A DNA stretch of 64,000 bases, from contig OY744464.1 in NCBI GenBank assembly GCA_963556145.1, positions 6,609,508 through 6,673,507 on the forward strand, given 5' to 3'. Made by a program: the position numbers and the translations under genes. The first letter of the stretch is position 1, and each line of letters starts with the position of its first letter. This DNA is from Hygrocybe punicea (taxonomy: Eukaryota > Basidiomycota > Agaricomycetes > Agaricales > Hygrophoraceae). Below the pieces are notes generated by a model that searched no databases, was not told the origin of the DNA, and saw nothing but the letters and a program-made list of their open reading frames with translations. This document shows positions 1,777 through 63,313 of the stretch, one piece after another.

Positions 1777-2292
1777 TCTGACCCGCTGACCTTGTCGTGC
1801 TCCAAAAGTGTACGATTAGCAAGCAAACAAGTTGCGTAACTTTGAACCTGGCTTTTCTTCTAGAGGTAAGCTTCCGTTTCTCTCGCCGTCGTTTCTCCCT
1901 GATGATCTATGAAACATCACATTTTCAGACAATTTCACCAGTTCACTACATTTACGGTTGTCGCCCCGACTAGTTAGTCATCGTCGTCAACGTGTGTGGT
2001 TTCCGAGATATTGAATTGATAACGTTCCTTGGGAACCAGCCAATCTATTTAACGACAAGTATGAGCTTGTGTACACCGATTATTCAATAACGCCCTCAGC
2101 TGGGGCTTTATAATTTATTTTTCGCCGCAGATAGCCGAGGTGCCGGACCGCGTGGCAAGCCTCGTGGTCCACACGTGGGATTTCAAATATCTTATTGGGG
2201 AGTTCCCGATCTGGTGTCTGTTGTTTGAAGGGGAGAAGGACCGTGACGCTCGATGGTCCACAGCGTTCCCCCATCCTTTCTCCAAGATCGAC
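1777..2292. other. Intergenic region without recognised gene
   Basis: The 516 bp between EMC6 and the next gene hold no convincing coding exon. An open frame runs in from about 2131 after an AG-like site, so a 5' UTR intron of the downstream gene is possible, but nothing proves it. Confidence 0.5.
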
Positions 2293-3049
2293 ATGACGGG
2301 AACCTACGTCCTCCTGCAGTTCGGGTCAAATCCATTCAGCACCAGGTTTGAGGACCTCGAAAGTAGACCTGCGTTCACGGTGTAAGTATTTCCAGAATTT
2401 TCTTACGACCCTGGAGCTTATATGGAATGGCTGTAAACAGGGGGGCGGTAATATTCTCTCAAATTTCTTATTCCTGACCGCCCATTGACCTCGGTCGACC
2501 AATACCACAGGTAGACGGGGAATATCAGCCTAACCTCGTCATCAAAATCACTCGTGAGGCTCAATGGTCAAAGCAACACCCAAGCATTATGGGCCCAGAT
2601 AAATCGTTTTTCTATTTTGGGCCCGCAACAAAACCCGGATATGTTGTCTACGGAAATGGTCCTTCCCTTGCCATGACTTCTCTTATCCGACAAAAGAAGG
2701 AGGCTAGCATGTAAGCTACTCCCCCAGGTGTCTATTCACTAGTCGCTGAGGTGTCAGGAAAGGTCTCGTTATTTCACCGCTCAGAACGGAAAGGAATATA
2801 AGTGGAAAATCACCGCTGAACGAATGGAGGTATGCCATCGATGGTTTCACCACCCTCTACTTTATTCTTATATCCCCTTTCTGACAGTGTATCGAAGGGC
2901 GATCAACGAGTTTGGCTGTCTGGGAGTTGAGCGATCCGGAGGATGAGTTCGATGCTCGCCTCACCATCAAGCAGCCTGGAATCCCTCTCGTCACCGAAAT
3001 TCTTACAACCTTGACCATGAACCGCATGGCTCAGACACTTACTTGGTAG
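2293..3049 (+). CDS. Tubby C-terminal-like / DUF6593-type protein
   Basis: Four exons, 2293-2379, 2511-2710, 2763-2829 and 2888-3049, give 171 residues ending in TLTMNRMAQTLTW. The layout fits the small DUF6593 proteins that are expanded in Agaricomycetes: an N-terminal FGSNPFSTRFEDLESRPAFTV strand region, a central GKEYKWKIT strand, an EC-I-EGRSTSLAVWEL segment, and a C-terminal helix-like EILTTLTMNRMAQ. This fold is related to the tubby C-terminal/LURP barrel; the molecular role is unknown. The first donor is read as GTGTAAG at 2380 because the neighbouring GTAAGT at 2382 breaks the frame. The start was chosen as the first ATG ahead of the conserved strand; an open frame extends upstream without ATG. 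Function is not inferable. Confidence 0.62.
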
Positions 3050-3286
3050 CCTGAAATTCCAGATTATTGGCTCCGTTCACAACTCTGTTCTGTGTGCCCT
3101 TATTTTCAGCCAACGCCATTTGTTTATGCTGTTCAACCGTCGATCAAGGCACCATATTTATTTCGACAACACGTGTAGAATATCCTGGGATTTCCAGATT
3201 TGCTTCTCACAGCATAACGCAGCAAATCAATATTTGACGCACGAACAGTGGATTATCAGGTTTCAATTTGGCGACGCCGGCGACAT

Positions 3287-6075
3287 TCATGCCTCATTAC
3301 GCAACTCGTCGTTCAGCTGTGCTAAAACTGCCCATTCCGGCTCGCCTTCGAAGTCTCTTGTCCTGCCCATGAATGTCCTCACGACACTTCGGGCTTGAAG
3401 TCTCCATTTGGACCCTTCTACCCGCGGCCCGAAGTTCCTTAAAAGATCTACCATTTCTTCCACTTCAGTAACTGCTTCCCGCCATACTTTGATCTCGGTC
3501 TCGCCTTTTTCCATGGTCCCGGCCGTACTGCACCGGTAGCCGTCGAGATAGGCTTTGAGCGCGTCCTCCCACCGTGATTGCCAGGTTAACAAACGCGCAT
3601 ACGAACGGAAAATGCGGGGGGCGGAAACTCGTGGCAAAATTGTCCGCTCAAATACATCCAAAACCCTCCTAAGCAAACCACTGCCCTCGTTGGTACTTAC
3701 GGCCATGTCTTCTGCGCAATTCCCTGCGTGGTTGGTTGGTGCCTTTGTCACTGCGTCGACAAGACGCTCAAGAACTTCTTCATCCACAGATTTTGCACCA
3801 ACCTTGGCGCTGGTCTCTTCTACAATCCGAGTTAGTGCCCGGCACACCTCGGACAATTCTCCAACATCCATAGCGACGATCATGTAGTTCGACCACATGC
3901 GCCAATTCTCATAGCTGAATTTTAGACCATGCTTGAGTGCACGGAAAGCGAGCATCTTGTTTTCAAAGGGAACAGCTTTGGCTGTTTCTTCGTCAAAGTT
4001 CAGAGAAGGACTATTCGCATTGCATCCCTGTTGGCGATGAGTTTCAGTACGCGGTCCGATCGGAGCTCTGTTGAGATACCAACCTCGACATCCCGTTGGG
4101 CTAGATCTTTGTTTCGAATTCCCATACGAAGATAGACGCTAGCCAAATTATTCCAGCTCTCGCCATCCTCCTCATCAATTGCGACACAACGACTGAAGGC
4201 GCCTCTACCTCCTTCCCAATTCTCTACTCGCACGTATGCGCAACCCAAGATAAACCAGGAACGCGATAACAAGGGATTGATTGATACCGCGTGTATCAAA
4301 CATGTGATCGCATCCTGATATTCGCCTCTCGCAAAGTGGTAACCTCCAAGAGATCTCATCGCACGTCCGGAGGTCTCTTTTGACACCGACCAAGCACGAT
4401 TATAGTGTTCGAGCGCCTTCTCTGGCTCGAGGTCCCCCAAAAGACACCAGAATTTCGCTTCCCGGGCGCTATCGAGCCACTTTCTTCTGTCGCTCGAGGT
4501 TGCTTTCCCTTTCGCCAGGACCGTGTCCGATTCTTCTTTCCTCCCCTCTAGCAAATCCCGCACAATGGCAATTGCCTTATCGCGCCTCTCCATGGATTGC
4601 CAGCACCTCACAACTTCTTCCCACATCTCCAGCCGCTCAAAAATCTCTAATGCGGACTTGATGACACCAAGAGACATGAAACGCATGGCCAATTCGCGTT
4701 CCAACTCCCATTTGCTTGGCAAAGGGATGGCGTGAAAATAAAGCAGTCGTTCAGATAAAGATGAGTCAGCAGTTGGCATCTGGTCGACCAGAGCCTGCAA
4801 CTGCAGCGTGGACCGCTCCGCCGTACGTGTTCGAGACGACTCGAGGCGTGATCGAAGAAGGAGTGCCATGGTGTGCACTGACCAATTTCTAGGGTGGGTG
4901 ATAACACGGAAAACATACGGAGACATTTGTTCATTGGTCAGACCATGCGATGGCGACGTATTTTTTACGTTAAGACACATGGCGAGCAGGATACATTGGT
5001 CGAGGGGGTGTAAGGCAGGCTGAGAGGTGGCGTCAATGTGTTTCAGTCTAGGGCCTTGGTCTGCCGAAGCGGAATTCGTAAACTCAGTGTGTTCCAGGAG
5101 TGTATCATCATTCAGAGCCAAGGTTTCAGGGAATCTCGCCGTAGATGCGGTTGCCCCAACGTTGAGGGTCTCTTGGCCTGAGCCCACCCCGATTTTTGCG
5201 GTCTCTGACGACCCTTCAACCAAATGGCTCTCAGCAAGGAGCACCAGTTGACTGACTTCGGTTTCCTGGAATTTTGTCCGCTTGCCGAGAGCTCCTGTTA
5301 GCTCGTAGTCCAACCCGGTTGCTCTGGCGGCTCGGACAAAATGATCGGCTGCCAATTTATCACGGCCGAATTGATGCTCCAGCAGACCCTGTTCGAGCAA
5401 AAGTCTGCCTGTGAGGAGGCTATGATTTGAAAGAGTGAAGTTGGCAAAAAAAGGTTCAAGAGACGTAAGCTCGAGAGCGTCCGGGAGACCGACTGGTTCG
5501 TCTAGAATCTGCTGATGTACTAGCGCAGTGCGCAGACGCCACCAAGGGGCTGACTGGCAATGATTGTATGGAAGTGAGAGGAGGATTTGAGCGAACCTCA
5601 AAAATGCTGCGTGTTGTGTTAGATGGTAAGCGGGCTCCCCGCCGTAAGCGAGTTCAGTGATAGCCTTTCGGTTAAGGTCATGTTCCGTCGGGGGAGACGA
5701 ATTTTCCGGAAAGGAAATTATCTGCAAGGGGTACACATCTACGTGAGGACCAGTCCAGTTCGCCTGCACAAAAGCATGGAGACAGGCCACAGCCAGCGAT
5801 AGCCGGATTAATTCCCCTTCCGCTCCACCGCTGGATTGACCTACGGGTGGATCGAAGAGAGCGTCTAACGGTATGGCAAGAATGTTGGTGTCGGACCGGT
5901 GAGTTGTGAATGTTTCACGAGCGTGCGAACAGGTGAGGGCCTCTTTGAATGCGCCATTCACAACATTTTGAGAGAGATTCACTGCGAGACTTTGGGCAGA
6001 ACCCGGAATGTGAGGGTCCCACCGCCCAATTAGTAGAGCGCCTTCGATTAGTGGTACCTCCGAGTCCGGGCTCAT
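3287..6075 (-). CDS. TTC27/Emw1-like tetratricopeptide repeat protein
   Basis: Exon 1 (6075-4080) and exon 2 (3987-3287), joined across an 92 nt intron (GTATCT donor, GAAG acceptor), give 898 residues, matching the size of yeast Emw1 (about 900) and human TTC27 (about 840). The N-terminal two thirds are helical with conserved landmarks such as LLTGRLLLEQGLLEHQFGRDKLAADHFVRA. The C-terminal third has TPR units, for example the pair starting SRSWFILGCAYVRVENWEGGRGAFSRCVAIDEEDGESWNNLASVYLRMG. Exon 2 supplies AFRALKHGLKFSYENWRMWSNY, which is the conserved family segment directly after that TPR. Emw1 is essential for cell-wall integrity in yeast; TTC27 is linked to assembly of large complexes. An earlier in-frame ATG at 6105 exists. 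Convergent with the upstream tubby-like gene. Confidence 0.85.
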
Positions 6076-43020: not shown

Positions 43021-44774
43021 ATGGAGAATCGGCTGAAGGCATCTCACCACGTTGAAGGAAATCCTGGTGACCATTTCTATGGGCCGACATACGGTGGTGT
43101 CGTCGGTGGTCGGCATCATAATATTGCCATCGTAAATGCCCAGAACGGTGAGCCGGCGTATTATTGTGTACATATTTTCACATTCATGAGCTTTGTCTAT
43201 TAGTTTCTATACTGGACATTTTGGAGCCTCATAACGTCCCTGACGCCTATTACAATTCACGCGAGCGGGAAAAAGAACATGCTTCTACATGCCATCCTGA
43301 CACTCACACCAGAGTCCTACGGCAAATCGAGACATGGTTAACTGGCGATGGACGGCAATTCGTGTGCTGGTTGCACGGTCCTGCGGGGACAGGAAAGTCC
43401 ACGATAGCTCAAACGGTAGCTCAGCGCCATCAGGATGGGCGGCTTGTCTGCACGTTCTTTTTCTCACGAAAAAAGGGAGATCGGGAGGACATCACGAAAC
43501 TCATTCCTACCCTTGCGTATCAGATCGCGGAAAGAATCCCAACGTTGCAGACGCAGATGCGAGATACTTTGAGCAAAGACCGGACGCTTCTCAAGCAAAG
43601 CCTCAAACGTCAGTTCCTAAAACTCATCGTTGAGCCCTTGATGAAGGTTGAAACCCACGATCGATTCTTGATCGTTATCGATGGACTTGACGAGTGCGCT
43701 GCAAGGGATGAAGTTTTGGATTTTATCGGTTTAGTTGGCGAGACGATGACGAGCCATAAATGTCCTGTTCAATTTCTCCTGACGAGCCGGCCGGAGCCCG
43801 AGATTCGTTCAGCTTTTCAGCGGCACATATTCAGTAGGATGTCGCTCTGGCTTACTCTCGAGGATTCCAAAGACGACGTTCGAAAATATCTGAAAGAAAA
43901 ACTCACGGAAATTCGCGAAACTTACGGCTCGGTTATGACAGGCGAACCGATGGAATGGCCTTCGAATAAAGACCTCAACGAGCTTGTCGGAAAATCAGAG
44001 GGACTTTTCATTTATGCGTCGACACTGGTCCTATACATGAACGACCGGCGAGAATCTCCACAGGAGAAGCTGCGTCGTGTTCTCAGGGTACACGACGGTG
44101 TGGATCCGTTATACACCCAAGTGATGACTGAAGCGCAGCAGTGCAAGGATTTCGACCAGGTCATGGGAACCATAATGTACCTTAGGAGCGCACAACCCGT
44201 TGAAGTGCTCGCTCAGCTACTTCAACTTGACGTCTCTAACATTCGGATAGCATTGGATCGATGTCACTCTATCCTAGCTATTCCAGAGGACCCTAAAGAA
44301 GCCATCCGACCTTATCATGCGTCCTTGCGAGACTTCTTAACAGACCAAGGACGGTCTCAAGCGTTATATCTAGCACCAGCCAAATTTCATTCGTTGATCG
44401 CGGTCGCCTGTCTGCGAGGGATGACCGACTGTCCCCACATCAATGATGAACAAAAGAAATATATTTCTACGGGATGGTATTACCACTGCGCTCTATTCTT
44501 ATCCGAAACCAACAGCAGTCAAGACTTCTTGGTACTTTGTGCACAGGTAAACGGGGAACTGATGAGGATTGATTTGAAGTGGTTGAAGCAATGGATGACG
44601 GAGGCATTTTTCTGCGCCGTATTAGGGTACATTAAGATTGATTTACCATCCTCGAAAGTGAGTGAGTGGACAGTCTTGTAACGGATGATTGATAATGTGA
44701 ATGTTGCGAAGGGTATGCATGCAGAAGCCAAGTCCTTGCACATCAAGTTGGAAAGAATAGGGAAGGTTCTTGAG
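43021..44774 (+). CDS. NACHT-domain NLR (NOD-like receptor), main exons
   Basis: Exons 43021-43147, 43204-44657 and 44712-44774; the last two joins are phase 0. Short N-terminus (GDHFYGPTYGGVVGG then NIAIVNAQNG) of the type that precedes NACHT in basidiomycete NLRs. After YYNSREREKEHASTCHPDTHTRVLRQI comes the P-loop WLHGPAGTGKSTIAQT, then FFFSRKKGDRED, the Walker B FLIVIDGLDEC, and the sensor LLTSRPEPEI; a winged-helix-like part follows (IRPYHASLRDFL). Without the intron at 44658 the frame stops at 44681; with it, exon 3 reads GMHAEAKSLHIKLERIGKVL and E at a GTAGGG donor. No WD40, ANK or TPR repeats follow; instead the gene leads into the micro-exon array. Fungal NLRs act in non-self recognition and cell death. 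Confidence 0.9.
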
Positions 44775-47389
44775 GTAGGGTGAAGATTTACATGCATGTA
44801 CACTGTGATAACTGATCTTTGTGTTCTAAAATGCAGAATGTAAGCTGACCATCCAATTTGCCTTGCCTTGCTGATGTCAGGTCCAAATTTATTGGAAATA
44901 TCAGTTTGTGTGTCCAGATGTTAATGTTTTTTGGATATGGTTAATGAACAGTTGCAGGTAGTATGTGACTAATTGGTATTGCAATTGGGTATGGCTGAAT
45001 ATTGGGAAAATCTGCAATGCTAGGATGTAAGTGGTGAGAATTGTGGCTGGCATGATTTGAACTAAAATTTAGGTCATTACTGTGAGCCTAGTGGGTATGT
45101 GAACTAATATTATAATATCCATTTCAGTTTGTTGACATGTTGGTGACATCTGTGTCCCCTCAGACAGTGAGTGATCCATTTGTAGACTTGGTTGATGTGC
45201 AGCTGACATGTTGGTGACATCTGTGTCCCCTCAGCCAGTGAGTGATCCATTGGTAGGCTTGGTTGATGTCCAGCTGACATGTTGGTGACATCTGTTTCTC
45301 CTCAGTCAGTGAGTGATCCATTTGTAGAGTTGGTTGATGTCCAGCTGACATGTTGGTGACATCTGTGTCCCCTCAGCCAGTGAGTGATCCATTTGTAGAC
45401 TTGGTTGATGTCCAGCTGACATGTTGGTGACATCTGTGTCCCATCAGGGAGTGAGTGATCCCTTTGTGGACTTGGTTGATGTCCAGCTGACATGTTGGTG
45501 ACATCTGTGTCCCCCCAGCTAGTGAGTGATGCATTGGTAGACTTGGTTGATGTCCAGCTGACATGTTGGTGACATCTGTGTTCCCTCAGCCAGTGAGTAA
45601 TCCATTGGTAGACTTGGTTGACGTCCAGCTGACATGTTGGTGACATCTGTGTCCCCTCAGTATGTGAGTGATCCATTTGTAGAGTTGGTTGATGTCCAGC
45701 TGACATGTTGGTGACATCTGTGTCCCCTCAGTATGTGAGTGATCCATTTTTAGACTTGGTTGATGTCCAGCTGACATGTTGGTGATATCTGTGTCCCATC
45801 AGGGAGTCAGTGATCCATTTGTAAACTTGGTTGATGTCCAGCTGACATGTTGGTGACATCTGTGTCCCCTCAGAGAGTCAGTGATCCATTTGTAGACTTG
45901 GTTGATGTCCAGCTGACATGTTGGTGACATCTTTGTCCCCTCAGTCAGTGAGTGATCCATTGGTAGACTTGGTTGATGTCCAGCTGACATGTTGGTGACA
46001 TCTGTGTCCCCTCAGAGAGTCAGTGATGCATTTGTAGACTTGATTGATGTCCAGCTGACATGTTGGTGACATCTGTGTCCCCTCAGTATGTGAGTGATCC
46101 ATTTGTAGAGTTGGTTGATGTTGGTGACATCTGTGTCCCCTCAGTCAGTGAGTGATCCATTGGTAGACTTGGTTGATGTCCAGCTGACATGTTGGTGACA
46201 TCTGTGTCCTCAGTATGTGAGTGATCCATTTTTAAACTTGGTTGATGTCCAGCTGACATGTTGGTGACATCTGTGTCTCCTCAGAGAGTCAGTGATCCAT
46301 TTGTAGAGTTGGTTGATGTCCAGCTGACATGTTGGTGACATCTGTGTCCCCTCAGCCAGTGAGTGATCCATTTGTAGAGTTGGTTGATGTCCAGCTGACA
46401 TGTTGGTGACATCTGTGTCCCCTCAGGGAGTGAGTAATCCATTTGTAGACTTGGTTGATGTCCAGCTGACATGTTGGTGACATCTGTGTCCCCCCAGCTA
46501 GTGAGTGATCTATTGGTATACTTGGTTGATGTCGAGCTGACATGTTGGTGACATCTGTGTCCCTTCAGTATGTGAGTGATCCATTTATAGACTTGGTTGA
46601 TGTTCAGTTGACACATTTGTTTTAGCAAGTGTGTTATCAGTTTGTGCAATTAATTGATGTTAAGTTTATATCTTTCAACATTGATACTTCAATCAGGTAT
46701 TTTCTTGTTCAGTATTGTTGAGCTTATGCTAATCACATTTGAATGTCTTCAGCTTGTAGGTAGTCATTCACATTTGATATCAACTTATCTTATTTAGCAT
46801 CTGTCTACTTAGGTGGTAAGCATTTTTCTTTTTGTTTCAAGTCACTCTCACTCTTGAGCTTTCTCATCAATCACACCATCCCATATTCATCTGTCAACTT
46901 AACTCATTGTCACAATCATCCTTAGGCTGTGAGTATCTTTTTTTATTATTATTGTCAAGTGGATCATGTTTTCCATTTAGAGTGTAAGTATTTGTCAGAT
47001 TTGCACAATCCTTATAGTAATCATGCATTATACTTTTCATTGTGGATGCACCATAGGATGTAAGTCAAGATGTTCTTGCACTTTTTGCTAAACTGATATT
47101 ATTGCTGCAGATTGTATGTCCTATTTATTACTTTGCATTTTTATGTACTTTAACTTGTGGTTTAGACAGTGAGTATTATGTGAATTTTTTTCTTTCTTCT
47201 GAGAGTATTCTCTATAAACAGCAAGTGTGTTTACTCCATGTCATTGCATACTTCTTTGCTGAGTTGCTTGTTCCATGGCAGTTTGTGAGTTCAAAGCACT
47301 TTGTCTTGTTTGATTGTTATTGGCCATATCCTTGTCCCCAATTAGTTTGTGAGTTACCTCCATTTTGTTTTGGATGATTGTAGAATTAA
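44775..47389 (+). other. Array of about 37 single-codon (3 nt) micro-exons
   Basis: From 44837 on, acceptor AG, exactly three bases, and a donor GT recur. Micro-exon first bases: 44837, 44905, 44958, 45024, 45092, 45164, then every 71 bp from 45235 to 46087, then 46145, 46214, 46285, 46356, 46427, 46498, 46569, 46626, 46753, 46813, 46926, 46981, 47057, 47111, 47166, 47222, 47282, 47346. Donors are mostly GTGAGT, GTAAGT, GTATGT or GTGTGT. Introns are 50-73 nt except 124 and 110 nt near 46629 and 46816. The codons start AAT TTT GTA GAT TGG ACA CCA TCA and end GAT ATT ACA CAA TTT TTT; none is a stop. After the last, AG at 47382-47383 leads to AAT TAA (35 nt intron), or AG at 47404 to AAG. The array continues the NLR frame in phase 0. 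Read directly from the sequence; splicing itself is inference. Confidence 0.75.
45095..46571. repeat. 71 bp tandem repeat (68 nt intron + 3 nt codon)
   Basis: About 21 units of 71 bp: GTGAGTGATCCATTTGTAGA, CTTGGTTGATGTCCAGCTGA, CATGTTGGTGACATCTGTGT, CCCCTCAG and a variable triplet. Divergence is low except at the triplet, which is ACA, CCA, TCA, GGA, CTA, TAT or AGA. One unit (46087-46144) lacks 13 bp including the CTGAC branch-like site; another is 2 bp short. Four units have GTCAGT in place of GTGAGT, always after GGA or AGA. The block CCA-GGA-CTA with a CCCCCCAG acceptor before CTA occurs twice (45377-45521 and 46356-46500), so a multi-unit block was duplicated. Confidence 0.95.
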
Positions 47390-47405
47390 ATGGATATTTT
47401 ATAGA

Positions 47406-53770: not shown

Positions 53771-56700
53771 ATGTCCACCACACTCCAAGCCGTCTCCGAC
53801 TCCCTTCCGTCTGATATCCTGAAACTCGCCTCCAATGGACTCAACTGGGCGATTTTTGAGCTGCGTTTTACAGCCACTGTCATGGCCAAAGGACGATGGG
53901 GACACTTTGATGGGAGCGCTTCCCAACCCTCGACTCCACCTCCCTTGGATGACGGGTCACAAGCTCCGAACCCTGATGGGGAGAAGTGGGTGAAGGACAA
54001 GGCAACAGCCAAGAACCTCCTCTTACAGAAGATACCGGACTCGGTGGCCATGAAGATCCGCCGCCACCAGACCGTTGCTTTAGCCTGGGAATCCATCATT
54101 GAAGAGTACACTTGCCGGAGTGTCTTTGCTCAAACTGAGTTGAGAGCCGCCTTCCTCGACTCGAGGTGTCCTGACAAAGGTGACGTGCGAAAGTTCTTGG
54201 ATGACCTGTGTGCCAAAAGGGAGGATTTAGCTTCGTTAGACGTGGACATCGATGACAAAGATTACTGGTCCACTATTATCTTGTCCCTCCCCCCCCACCT
54301 CGCAAACTTCGCCTCAGTGCAGCTCACCGCGGCTAAGCTATACAGCTCCACCAAGACCATCGAGCCCGACCTCTTTATTCAGGTGATCGCCGACGAGTGG
54401 GACCGCTATAGATCCCAACAGATACGATCCAAGCGGCCAATGACCAACCTGGCGATCGATGACGGCAATGATGCGATGGCTGTGGTGCCGGAGAAAAGGA
54501 ACAAGGGCCAGAGCCGATACGCTGACAAGAGTTGTTACAATTGCGGCGAGCTGGGCCACATCAGCAGGTTCTGCAAGAAACGAAGGAAGGCTAGGGCTGT
54601 CACGGAGCCCAAACTGAATGACATTCCCATGTCGGCTTGCATCGAGGAATGCGATGGTGCCTTCAGTGTTGATTCTGTTTCATCCTCTGAAGATGACGAC
54701 ACCGCTGATGCCCTATCTGATTTCAGCGATTTCAGCGACGACGGCGTCGACCCCACCAACCCCCTAGAGAACATTTGGGCTGACGAGCCCATCTTTGATA
54801 CCATTGCTGGTGTGCCCGATGCCGAGGCAGCCATGGATGTCGAATGGGTACAGGTTGGGGCCTTTCTCAAATGCAGGTCACCGGACGAGACCACCGCCAT
54901 CGCGGATGGAGGAGCCACGCACGAAACTAGGGTTAGCTTGTTAGATTCCGGATGTACTATACATATATTGCCCTACCGGGATGCCCTAGAGAACATAACC
55001 GAGGTCCCTCCCAAGACCTTCTGAGCTGCGAATAAACAGAGGTTCAGTGCTACTGAGGCTGGTACACTCACACTGAACTTACCAAATGGTGTCGATTTCT
55101 CAAGTCTGCAACTCCATGAAGTCCTCTATTCCCCCGAAGTCGGTTACACCTTCATATCAATCGGCAAGCTCGACGATCTGGGATTCAAGGTACTCTTTGC
55201 CAAGGGCACTTGCACCATTCATGCGCCAGATGGAAAAGTCGTAGGCAGGATTCCCAAGGATGCAAGTGGCCTCTATCGGTTGACTAGTGGAGGGGAATCA
55301 GCACACGCGCTCGAGACAGTAACCATCGACCAACTACACCGGCGCATGGGCCATATAGCCCCCGATACCGCCAAACACATGATTAAAGGTGGTTTTGTGA
55401 TGGGAGTGCGCCTTGACAGTTCCTCGGGCACCCCTGTTTTTTGCGAGTCTTGTATATATGCCAAAGCCACACGAAAACCAGTACCCAAGGAAAGGGAAGG
55501 CCAACAAGCTAGCGAACTTGGTGGTGAGATACACAGCGACGTCTGGGGACCAGCCCCTGTTCCTACCTTTCGAGGCCGTCGGTATTACGTCAGTTTCATC
55601 GACGACAAAACCCGTCTTGCGCATGTCACCCTTTTACATAACAAAGGTGAGACCTTCCAGGCCTATACAGACTTCGAAGCTCGACTCCAAATGCAATTTG
55701 GCAAGGGCATCGTTGCCCTAAACTCTGATAGATGGGGAGGGTACACTGGCAAGACATTTACCACTCACTTACTGAAGAATGGTACTCACCAGAAGCTGAA
55801 TGTCCATGACACTCCCCAGCACGCCGGAGTCTCCGAGCGATTCAATCATACCATTATAGAACGTGTTCGAGCCATGCTCCACGTGAGCGGACTCCCTAGG
55901 CCTCTGTGGGGCGAGGCTGCTCACCATGCCGTTTGGCTAATAAACCGGACTCCCACCAGGGCACTTGACGACATGACACCTCTCCAGGCTGCCACTGGAA
56001 AGAAGCCGGACATCGCCCTCGTTCGCGAGTGGGGGGAAAAGGTGTGGGTCAGAGTTGAAAAAGGCGACAAGCTGGGAGACCGCGTGCGTGAGGGACATTG
56101 GGTCGGTATGGATGAAAACAGCAAAGGCGCATGTATTTACTGGCCCTGGTCGAGAACCGTCACTGTCGAGTGCAATGTCTACACCAGAAATAATTGAGAA
56201 CCCATGGACCGCATCGAGGGGGAGAACTGGACCTTCGAACAGCCGACTGAGTCAGCTACATCGAGTCAGGGTCTGCAAACACCCCCACCTATGTTGGGTG
56301 AGCAGGATGTACCTTTGGCATCCGACCTGCTGGATATAGCACCACCAGTACCGCCCATAGACCAACCTCCCATCCCTCCGAAACGTTGAAACGATAAGAT
56401 CGATCCCATGAACATTCTACCCGAGGGTTCCAAAAGAACTAAAAAGCCCAGCCAGTGAGTCATAGACCTCACTACTGGCAAGGGACGCACCTCCAACAAA
56501 CCTGCTGACCCCGTCGTAACCACCAGCGTACAACTTCAGACTGTTAACCCCGAACTCACGAGTGACCATGTGGAAACCGATGAGGAATGGACAATGCCAG
56601 CTATGGATGAGAACATAGATGAGTACCCATTGGCACTTGAAACAGCGGATGCTGAAGCCATCGAACTGCGCACCCTGAACGAGGTGAAGCGTCGACCAGA

Positions 56701-58228
56701 CTGGCTGTTATGGGAAAAGGGAATACATGAAGAACTCGACACTCTCCGCAAAGCTGGAACTTGGGATCTCATTGACAAGCCTGAAGCTGCAAATGTGGTT
56801 GGATCAAAATGGGTATTCCACGCCAAGAAGGATGCCGCCAGCGCTGTTGTTAGACATAAAGCTCGCCTGGTAGCTCAAGGTTTTTCGCAGATCCCCGGTA
56901 TCGACTACCTCGACACGTATGCACCCGTCACAAAGCTCGCTTCCGTTCACACCATCCTGGCCATGGGAGTGAAGTTGAATTTGGAAATGCACCAGATCGA
57001 CATAAAAGGTGCATACCTGAATGGCGACCTGACCGAGAACGAGGTGGTGTACATGAAACAGCCCCCTGGCTACCACGCCCCCAACTCTGCTGGGAAGGTT
57101 TGCTGCCTCAATAAAACTCTATACGGCCTCAAACAGAGCGGTTGCCGATGGTACCAGAAACTGGTCTTCATCCTTGTCACAAACCTCGGTTTCCGTTGTT
57201 GTGAAGTAGATCAAGCCATATTTATATACAGAGTCAATGACGAACTTACAATTATTGCCATCCATGTTGACGACTGCACCATTGCAGCCACAACCCTCCG
57301 ACTCATTGAAGATGCGAAGGCCGGCATTCGCAAGTTTGTGGAGATAAGCAACCTGGGCGAGCTTCACTGGTTGCTAGGCATAGAGATTCGTCGGGATCAA
57401 GAGGCCGGAACCATCTACTTGTCGCAGCGATCCTACATAGATTCAATTCTACGACGTTTCAACCTCGAAGACTGCAAACCGGTTTCAACGCCAATGGAGA
57501 CGAATCTAAGACTCACCGCTGCTCAGTCGCCAACTACCACGACAGAGTTTGCCGTAATGCGTGACGTGCCATATCTTGAGGCCGTTGGATCACTCATGTG
57601 GGTGTGCCTCAGTACCTGACCTGATATTGCGTTCGCCGTCACCACGCTCTCCAGATTCTCCAAGAATCCAGGCCCCGCTCATTGGGATGCAGCCAAATGA
57701 GTCTTCCGATACCTGGCTGGAACCCGGAACCTTTGGCTGTCATATGGCGACACATGAAGCGGACTTGTAGGATATGCTGATGCCGACGGCAGTACATCAG
57801 AAGATCGATGAGCAGTAAACGGTTACACTTTCATTCTTGATGGAGGAGCCGTCTCCTGGAGCTGCAAGAGACAAGAAATTGTTTCTTTATCAACGACCGA
57901 GAGTGAATACATAGCGGCGACAAACGCGGCAAAGGAGGCCCTTTGGTTACGCTCCCTTTTGTCTTCACTTTTCGAGCCCGTTAACACCCCGACCACCCTC
58001 TTCTCAGACAATCAATCCGCGATCGCCCTATCTAAAGAACATCAGTATCACGCGTGAACAAAACACATCGACGTACGTTTTCACTTCATCCGATGGATTA
58101 TCGAGAACGGCCAACTTCGATTAATATATTGCCCGACCGACGACATGGTGGCCGATACGTTGACCAAAGCGTTCCCGTCTGCCAAAGCAAAACATTTCGC
58201 CTCCGAACTTGGCCTTCATGCGGTTTGA
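53771..58228 (+). pseudogene. Copia Gag-Pol polyprotein with nine in-frame TGA stops
   Basis: One frame of 1,485 codons holds the complete polyprotein. Gag occupies residues 1-330, with the zinc knuckle CYNCGELGHISRFC near residue 257. The protease site is LLDSGCTIH, just before the first stop. The pre-integrase part has HRRMGHIAPDTAKHM and CESCIYAKATRKPVP; integrase has HSDVWGP, LNSDRWGGYTG and GVSERFNHTIIERVRAM. RT has YAPVTKLASVHTILAMGVK, HQIDIKGAYLNGDL, YGLKQSGCRWYQKL and HVDDC; RNase H has SLSTTESEYIAATNAAKEA and TKHIDVRFHF. Internal TGAs start at 55022, 56195, 56387, 56456, 57617, 57698, 57755, 57809 and 58055. There is no TAA, TAG or frameshift. At least four stand where Arg is conserved, so CGA to TGA mutation explains them. 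Not functional as it stands. Confidence 0.95.
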
Positions 58229-59365: not shown

Positions 59366-60199
59366 TGAAAGGGTGCACTGCGGTAATGTGAACGGAATCA
59401 AATACCAACTCTACCACAGTGCTGTACGAATTCTGAGGGGTTCAATCTCAATCCAAAAGGTTAATAAAAATACTCAGAGGTGCTCTGGATAGTGGCGATG
59501 ATGTTTCCGATGTGCGCAATGTGCGTGGCGTGTGCGAAACAGTCGGCAATGTTTTCAGCGTATATGTAGCACTTTATAGAAGGAACACAAAGTTTTAATA
59601 GAGCAGCGCGGAGCTATCGCATGGACGGCGCAGTAAAGAGGTGATATGATAGACTGGAATCGGGGGTATACAAGATGTCTCTCTAGTATGTAAACTATAG
59701 GGGGTATTTATGCGAAGTTGGTTGTTAGGACAATAAAGGGTGAAGAAGGCAAGACAAATAGACGGTGCGTGACGGAACTATGGTGCAATAGGAATGAAAT
59801 GGAACTGAAACAAAGGGTATAGCACCATGAGAAGCAATTTCCAAAATATCTAGAGGATAGGAGCTATAATGTTTGAAATAAGTGAAACATGTCACATAAA
59901 GACTTCCCTGGAACCGGAACGGAATCGGAATGGAATAGGGTGAACGGTACAAGCGTAGGTGATGTCGGAGAGGCTCGAAATATGTTTCCAAAGGGGGCCG
60001 AAGCGCTCCGAAGAAAATCGCCGTAATGTAAAATTATCGCCCGTATCGCCTGTATCGCGCGCATCGCGCTGTCACATCGCAATGGAGATACATATAAATC
60101 GGGATGTTTCGCAATAAATCGCAGTGAATCACAGCATGTCCGAGGCTAGAATAGGTCCAATAGAGGGTTTCCATGCTTAGGGACGTGCGCTGCATATCA
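59366..60199 (-). repeat. 3' LTR of gypsy derivative
   Basis: 834 bp, direct copy of 62480-63313 with scattered differences and small compensating indels. LTR end bases TG..CA in element orientation. Confidence 0.93.
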
Positions 60200-62479: not shown

Positions 62480-63313
62480 TGAAAGGGTGCACTGCGGTAA
62501 TGTGAATGGAATCAAATACCAACTCTACCACAGTGCTGTACGAATTCTGAGGGGTTCAATCTCAATCCAAAAGGTTAATAAAAATACTCAGAGGTGCTCT
62601 GGATAGTGGCGGTGATGTTTCCGATGTGCGCGATGTGCGCGATGCGCGTGGCGTGTGCGAAACAGTCGGCGATGTTTTCAGCGTATATGTAGCACTTTAT
62701 AGAAGGAACACAAAGTTTTAATAGAGCAGCGCGGAGCTATCGCATGGACGGCGCAGTAAAGAGGTGATATGATAGACTGGAATCGGGGGTATACAAGACG
62801 TCTCTCTAGTATGTAAACTATAGGGGGTATTTATGCGAAGTTGGTTGTTAGGACAATAAAGGGTGAAGAAGGCAAGACAAATAGACGGTGCGTGACGGAA
62901 CTATGGTGCAACAGGAATGAAATGGAACTGAAACAAAGGGTATAGCACCATGAGAAGCAATTTCCAAAATATCTAGAGGATAGGAGCTATAATGTTTGAA
63001 ATAAGTGAAACATGTCACATAAAGACTTCCCTGGAACCGGAACGGAATCGGAATGGAATAGGGTGAACGGTACAAGCGTAGGTGATGTCGGAGAGGCTCG
63101 AAATATGTTTCCAAAGGGGGCCGAAGCGCTCCGAAGAAAATCGCTGTAATGTAAAATTATCACCCGTATCGCGCGCATCGCGCTGTCACATCGCAATGGA
63201 GATACATATAAATCGGGATGTTTCGCAATAAATCACAGTGAATCGCAGCATGTCCGAGGCTAGAATAGGTCCAATAGAGGGTTTCTGTGCTTAGGGATGT
63301 GCGCTGCATATCA
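62480..63313 (-). repeat. 5' LTR of gypsy derivative
   Basis: 834 bp, the upstream LTR in element orientation. Equal length with the other copy and ends in the putative primer-binding site. Confidence 0.93.

Follow-up and report, generated by a model that had tools for sequence, protein, structure and literature searches.

Immediately downstream of a NACHT-type NLR gene of Hygrocybe punicea, in the stretch of 64,000 nucleotides analysed here (the window, part of contig 6 in a genome of 92.2 Mb and 42 contigs), 37 consecutive units, each with three arbitrary bases set between a YAG acceptor and a GT donor, continue the reading frame of the receptor in phase 0, as the initial annotation had proposed. 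Judging from the sequence, these units are probably real single-codon exons, and the ordinary splicing of short introns would then provide the receptor with a C-terminal tail of 37-38 residues. The best reading of their origin is that the units were multiplied by tandem duplication, with selection acting on the encoded residues.

The receptor gene comprises three predicted exons located ahead of this ladder of units (Table 1). With the NPHP3_N and NACHT domains recognized by Pfam, the gene found at 43021-44774 is a NACHT-type NLR, and the relatives named by a public protein search come from Amanita, Tricholoma and Sphaerobolus. Its third exon ends with the residues ...KVLE. No ankyrin repeats and, more generally, no WD, ANK or TPR domain were detected by Pfam in the NLR frame, one residue per repeat unit being predicted instead; on the + strand, no frame of at least 150 amino acids occurs between 44681 and 53771, a threshold which ankyrin repeats encoded by shorter exons would escape. 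With respect to the surroundings of the gene, pieces of a Copia-type retrotransposon are distributed over three frames at 53771-57616 (gag with a zinc knuckle, integrase parts and reverse transcriptase), and a short repeat unit, GGAATCGGAAC, occurs at 59910-59936 and again some 3.1 kb away at 63033-63059, perhaps as the result of a local duplication.

Table 1. Predicted exons of the receptor gene and components of the single-codon ladder (positions in the window).
Feature	Position	Strand	Basis and remarks
Predicted exon 1 of the NLR gene (MENRLKASHH...NAQN)	43021..43147	+	Sequence; in-frame join to exon 2; boundaries predicted
Predicted exon 2, NPHP3_N/NACHT domain of the NLR	43204..44657	+	Pfam: NPHP3_N 2.8e-33, NACHT 7.2e-13
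Predicted exon 3, GMHAEAKSLHIKLERIGKVLE	44712..44774	+	By-eye alignment to GMCTEAKALHITLEKIRKILQ (P0008) and GMCTEAKALHVTLEKIAEILQ (P0118)
Whole ladder: 37 acceptor-NNN-donor units, each a predicted exon of one codon, NFVDWTPSPGLPYYGRSRYSYRPGLYQLVASDITQFF	44837..47348	+	Site lists, translation, undivided homologue P0008
Left part of the ladder, non-repetitive: AAT TTT GTA GAT TGG (NFVDW)	44837..45094	+	Compare DFMDR (P0008) and LDKDW (L040)
Tandem array of 21 copies, period 71 (triplet of 3 nt + intron of 68 nt)	45133..46613	+	Tandem Repeats Finder score 2304; triplet hypervariable
Right part of the ladder, non-repetitive, 11 triplets (QLVASDITQFF)	46626..47348	+	By eye, gapless against DIINKDLNDFF of P0008
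Possible last exon, AAT TAA (Asn, stop)	47384..47389	+	Requires a 35-nt intron

The ladder consists of five left-flank units and eleven right-flank units, all in unique sequence, which enclose the 21 units of the array; the right-flank triplets read CAA CTT GTG GCT AGT GAT ATT ACA CAA TTT TTT. The 37 units were hand-picked from a candidate list, leaving aside overlapping sites located 4 nt further on together with the sites at 45128, 46641, 46760 and 47405, and a strict donor rule retains 5 + 17 + 11 = 33 of them. Most of the predicted introns (35 of 38) have the annotated length of 50-73 nt, the remaining three measuring 124, 110 and, for the last one, 35 nt. The series had been described as ending beside an in-frame stop: such a stop is readable at 47384-47389, but it depends on the 35-nt intron, and the use of the acceptor at 47404 instead would let the reading run on past it. 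Four array units (45803, 45874, 46016 and 46285), corresponding to the three AGA codons and to one of the three GGA codons of the array, possess the donor GTCAGT and not GTGAGT, and could thereby mark optional exons. The 124-nt intron, at 46629-46752, contains an AG/GT at 46695-46698 which divides it into 68 + 56 nt and possibly represents a zero-length recursive site; by eye, no additional residue occurs in the stretch of the public homologue P0008 that matches the position of this intron. Apart from this one candidate, the exons measure 3 nt, not 0 nt; the recursive-splicing ladder initially put forward is therefore not needed, and zero-length recursive exons were rejected as the general pattern.

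The spacing of exactly three bases between acceptor and donor extends beyond the repeat, and the initial claim on this point is confirmed. In the right flank (46613-47400), a YAG precedes each of the 11 donor-like sites at a distance of exactly 3 nt, and the same applies to five of the eight donor-like sites of the left flank (44775-45130), compared to means of 0.05 (left) and 0.08 (right), and a maximum of 2, in 2000 dinucleotide shuffles. Elsewhere in the window, spacing 3 is unremarkable, with 7 occurrences on the + strand and 2 on the - strand, the other spacings occurring 0-8 times. Sites located 45-80 nt apart form chains of up to 27 at spacing 3, whereas the chains at other spacings from 0 to 12 do not exceed 2, save for one of 13 at spacing 7 which is a by-product of the repeat. 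The absence of stop codons, also invoked against chance, holds for all of the 37 triplets but carries little weight: for the 84 triplets of four loci and a background stop rate of 3.4%, P is about 0.05 even if the triplets are independent, and the argument was rejected as a strong proof.

Ladders of this kind also occur elsewhere in the same genome, for which a protein search listed 86 matches, some of them being pieces of a single gene. The scan covered 39 NLR loci, each together with 1.2-1.5 kb of flank (30 from the search, two of them forming one gene, and 10 more). Four of these loci carry ladders of at least three units when weaker donors are counted by hand, namely the window gene (37 units), L040 (26), L041 (18) and L039 (3), so that dozens of predicted 3-bp exons are present, at the sequence level, at the first three loci. 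Under the strict rule, 21 sites of L040 and 14 sites of L041 show spacing 3, versus at most 2 for any other spacing from 0 to 24; L039 is weak by itself, with 3 sites at spacing 3 versus 2 at spacing 19. L040 contains a 71-bp array of its own, and its ladder reads LDKDWNIYLRIHHHYLRRVHLIQNWR, followed by NQVKQG and a stop; on the minus strand, at about 1140-1250 (counted on that strand), the NLR changes frame inside exon 2, which corresponds either to a broken gene or to an unmarked intron. In L039, the three units (GAA CAA TTG) are followed by an apparent ordinary exon. The 18 units of L041 are N-terminal and precede its NACHT exon, to which they join in phase 0. On its upstream side, this latter ladder (2150-3400) borders a frame that seems unrelated, and on its other side the NACHT exon; its triplet ATG at 2743 is possibly a single-codon start exon, and the step between 3270 and 3391 is devoid of a GT donor. 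Since this step is donor-less and the reading frame of the L040 receptor is disrupted, decay may be under way in some of the ladders. Used as a query against public proteins, the N-terminal peptide predicted from the L041 ladder, ...RDDAMREWERRLKD-LKPVQEAFY, found 29 matches; in one of these, P0122, the same domain is preceded by a short extension, MTEYDYSPEAYEAYLRKRD, a likeness which is suggestive at most.

A midpoint-rooted tree comprising 48 rows places the three C-terminal ladders in a single group of 12 rows with a support of 100/100. The only other row of this group from the same genome is L014 (L014/L032, C1:3355496-3356646), a truncated NLR pseudogene which stops before the tail exon. 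L041 belongs to a neighbouring group together with L015 and L016, both without ladder. The units of the window, L040 and L041 are alike in their layout, which comprises a donor, a CTGAC-like box and an acceptor; a first alignment of 28 ladder stretches scattered badly over the flank rows, and the second one comprises 23 rows, the window stretches 44817, 46906, 47037, 47146 and 47202 being omitted. Searched against the 92 Mb genome, the unit DNA was found at its own locus only, with at least 21 matches for the window, at least 2 for L041 and at least 5 for L040, these counts being lower bounds since best candidates only were scored. The units of the three loci were thus probably multiplied in place.

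The codons and the introns of the arrays differ strongly in their variability. In 18 of the 21 window units (45164, 46145 and 46214 being dropped), pi reaches 0.76, 0.76 and 0.37 at codon positions 1, 2 and 3, versus 0.06 in the rest of the unit; with all 21 units, it amounts to 0.63 for the triplet and 0.10 for the rest. The next most variable three columns of the array stand at 25%. The third base is A in 16 of the 21 codons and the other five are all TAT, to which every difference at position 3 is due and in which an A would give the stop TAA. Units 45661 (TAT) and 46356 (CCA) share 63 nt of identical flanks and differ in all three codon bases, and a block of three units, CCA-GGA-CTA (Pro-Gly-Leu), occurs twice. 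Because the array units are copies of each other, the TAT/NNA pattern does not amount to 21 independent observations. Tyr, Pro, Ser, Gly and Arg are abundant in the resulting middle part of the predicted tail. In the nine-unit array of L040, pi reaches 0.42, 0.72 and 0 at the codon positions (the third base being T) versus 0.10 elsewhere, but another three-column stretch, at 0.417, exceeds the codon at 0.38 and one intron column attains 0.81; the L040 array consequently provides a weaker support. Highly alike repeats with a few hypervariable positions are clear in the window array and less so in the L040 array. The simplest account is a concerted evolution of the introns and the silent base, with selection keeping the residues apart.

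An undivided homologue of the predicted tail, which the initial annotation had suggested to look for, does exist among public proteins. Among the 120 homologues listed out of 1406, P0008 alone possesses the tail. This protein of 593 amino acids, from a contig of 2152 bp, reads ...KILQ-DFMDRYGGRHHHYHLYYYGYYPRDIINKDLNDFFCE directly after its counterpart of exon 3, and both ends of its tail (DFMDR...DLNDFF) match those of the window tail (NFVDW...DITQFF), the gapless pairing at the C-terminal end covering 11 residues. In an end-anchored test restricted to the first five and last six residues, which was designed after the match had been seen, 1 of 200,000 shuffles was as good; for the full alignment of the two tails, 41, 12 and 13 of 20,000 shuffles were as good, depending on three gap costs. 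On visual inspection, P0008 retains no remnant of introns 1 and 2 and hence probably derives from a transcript; its tail may be undivided in its own genome. Its close relative P0118, joined at intron 2, ends with ...EILQVRV, which is what the reading of an intron at this position would give, and a search with the C-terminal region of P0008 returned these two proteins only. Several other listed homologues stop shortly after their counterpart of exon 3, e.g., P0002 (...TLDVRNIYLEEA) and P0025 from Amanita brunnescens (...ILEVGPLCV), which may result from donor read-through. Between the tails of L040 and of the window gene, the likeness is at best weak (414, 558 and 3759 of 20,000 shuffles scoring equally well, depending on the gap cost), and the L040 tail is unlike that of P0008 (3764-6035 of 20,000). 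The alike tail ends of the window gene and P0008 suggest fixed contacts.

Four other explanations deserve consideration with respect to these data. It is scarcely credible that a minisatellite unit merely contains splice-like letters by chance: the 21 array units are indeed copies of one unit, but 16 more sites occur in the unique flanks, further ladders with different sequences exist in the same genome and a homologous tail is found in P0008. Chance and a plain minisatellite were rejected on the basis of the flank spacing, the spacing scan of the other loci and the chain test. A burst of introner-like mobile introns, inserted between the successive codons of an older undivided exon, appears quite improbable. 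The unit layout shared by the three long ladders and the undivided protein tail of P0008 agree with such a burst, but it is at odds with the confinement of the unit DNA, among the best candidates scored in 92 Mb, to its own locus, and the near-uniform third bases within an array, together with the duplicated three-unit block, point to tandem duplication instead. Dispersed introners were rejected, the best-candidate matches of the window, L041 and L040 units being restricted to their own loci, and the codon-by-codon intron gain initially envisaged is disfavoured on the same grounds and by the third bases. To our knowledge, there is no cause for introns to become inserted exactly every three bases.

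The two other explanations bear on the fate of the triplets. They could be usually spliced out or skipped, in which case no tail would be made and the ladder would be a relic or else a brake acting through slow splicing. This is unlikely: the tail occurs in one of the 120 listed homologues and the frame of the L040 gene is broken, as would suit a relic, but P0008 does carry the tail, and variable codon positions 1-2 associated to a near-uniform third base, with TAT replacing TAA, are hard to explain without translation. Alternatively, the single-codon exons would be real but mainly devoted to alternative splicing, in-frame skipping giving many tails per gene, as citing passages report for the NACHT-ANK genes of the truffle Tuber melanosporum. 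Such a main role is conceivable and we grant it some credit short of adopting it; any skipping of phase-0 exons of 3 nt keeps the frame, and the four GTCAGT donors are in line with it, but the listed homologues offer one full tail (P0008) and no isoforms, and the 11-residue C-terminal end is equally long in P0008 and in the window, suggesting that those exons are included together. Alternative splicing is compatible with, and not exclusive of, the preferred reading, and the splicing-dependent variation of the tail mentioned in the initial annotation may occur.

According to the preferred reading of translated single-codon exons, the fungal spliceosome would recognize each short intron as a unit and take the introns out in turn, each removal adding one codon to the growing exon. 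The array would probably have grown by the in-place tandem duplication of the 71-bp unit, i.e., a codon and its 68-nt intron. Through unequal exchange or gene conversion taking place within the introns, residues would be gained, lost or moved with the frame left intact, since each unit contains one complete codon in phase 0, and a 71-bp exchange would correspond to one residue gained or lost in frame. Such exchanges would likely homogenize the introns and the third codon base, while the selection on residues would keep positions 1 and 2 different. The middle of the tail, free in length and sequence, would represent its changing, and perhaps recognizing, part. As a more tentative proposal, the ladder might function as an intron-scaffolded codon cassette, in which the 68-nt introns serve as recombination homology and the tail is written, lengthened and shuffled residue by residue without loss of frame, perhaps with further variation by exon skipping; recurring in both major fungal branches, this would be an ancient or convergent way of NLR diversification missed by standard gene prediction.

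The ladder is not the undescribed system that it was initially taken for. The report of mini-exons in Tuber melanosporum reportedly originates from Iotti et al. 2012. As described in citing passages, the NACHT-ANK (nank) genes of this truffle contain dozens of alternatively spliced 3-bp mini-exons (PMC4986451, PMC10197012, PMC3689799, PMC9815663). As far as these passages go, both systems consist of NACHT-type fungal NLRs with dozens of codon-sized exons and a proposed C-terminal receptor diversification. In contrast to the nank genes as described there, the window gene shows no detected ankyrin repeats and has its named relatives in Amanita and Tricholoma, and the present ladders exhibit tandem 71-bp units, hypervariable codons, an occurrence at 4 of 39 loci and one N-terminal location. 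Devoid of ankyrin repeats, the window gene is not placed in the NACHT-ANK family, though alike on paper. In the literature searched, single-codon exon arrays of fungal NLRs were reported from the truffle alone and none from a basidiomycete; an NLR clade without ankyrins, tandem units of 3 + 68 nt, hypervariable codons and an N-terminal version would, as read from the sequence, be new. A second occurrence, with its homologous undivided tail and its sign of selection at the codon level, would make a recurrent route of receptor diversification out of a curiosity. It would also imply that, in other fungal NLR gene models, the tail may be incorrect or absent; the ladders offer a natural test bed for the handling of three-base exons by the spliceosome, and splicing-made versus recombination-made receptor diversity becomes directly testable.

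Other known systems share some of these features. Plant microexons measure 1-15 nt and very short exons down to 1 nt are spliced (PMC8831610), while a microexon occurs in Xlr2 of Trichoderma, functional microexons being stated there as previously undescribed in filamentous fungi (PMC11121469); such very short spliced exons resemble the present ones but are single and not organized in arrays. The introner-like elements of fungi are described as invasive short introns multiplied in one genome (PMC4457414), whereas the near-identical introns found here occur in tandem at their own locus and not dispersed in many genes, as estimated by a lower-bound search. Fungal NLRs, among them the NWD genes of Podospora such as HET-D, are described as possessing highly alike WD, ANK or TPR repeats with a few hypervariable positions, inter-repeat exchange and diversifying selection (PMC4986451, PMC9815663). 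The window array similarly consists of highly alike repeats with a few hypervariable positions, but the repeats of these NLRs encode a folded motif, whereas here each repeat encodes a single residue and its conserved part is the intron.
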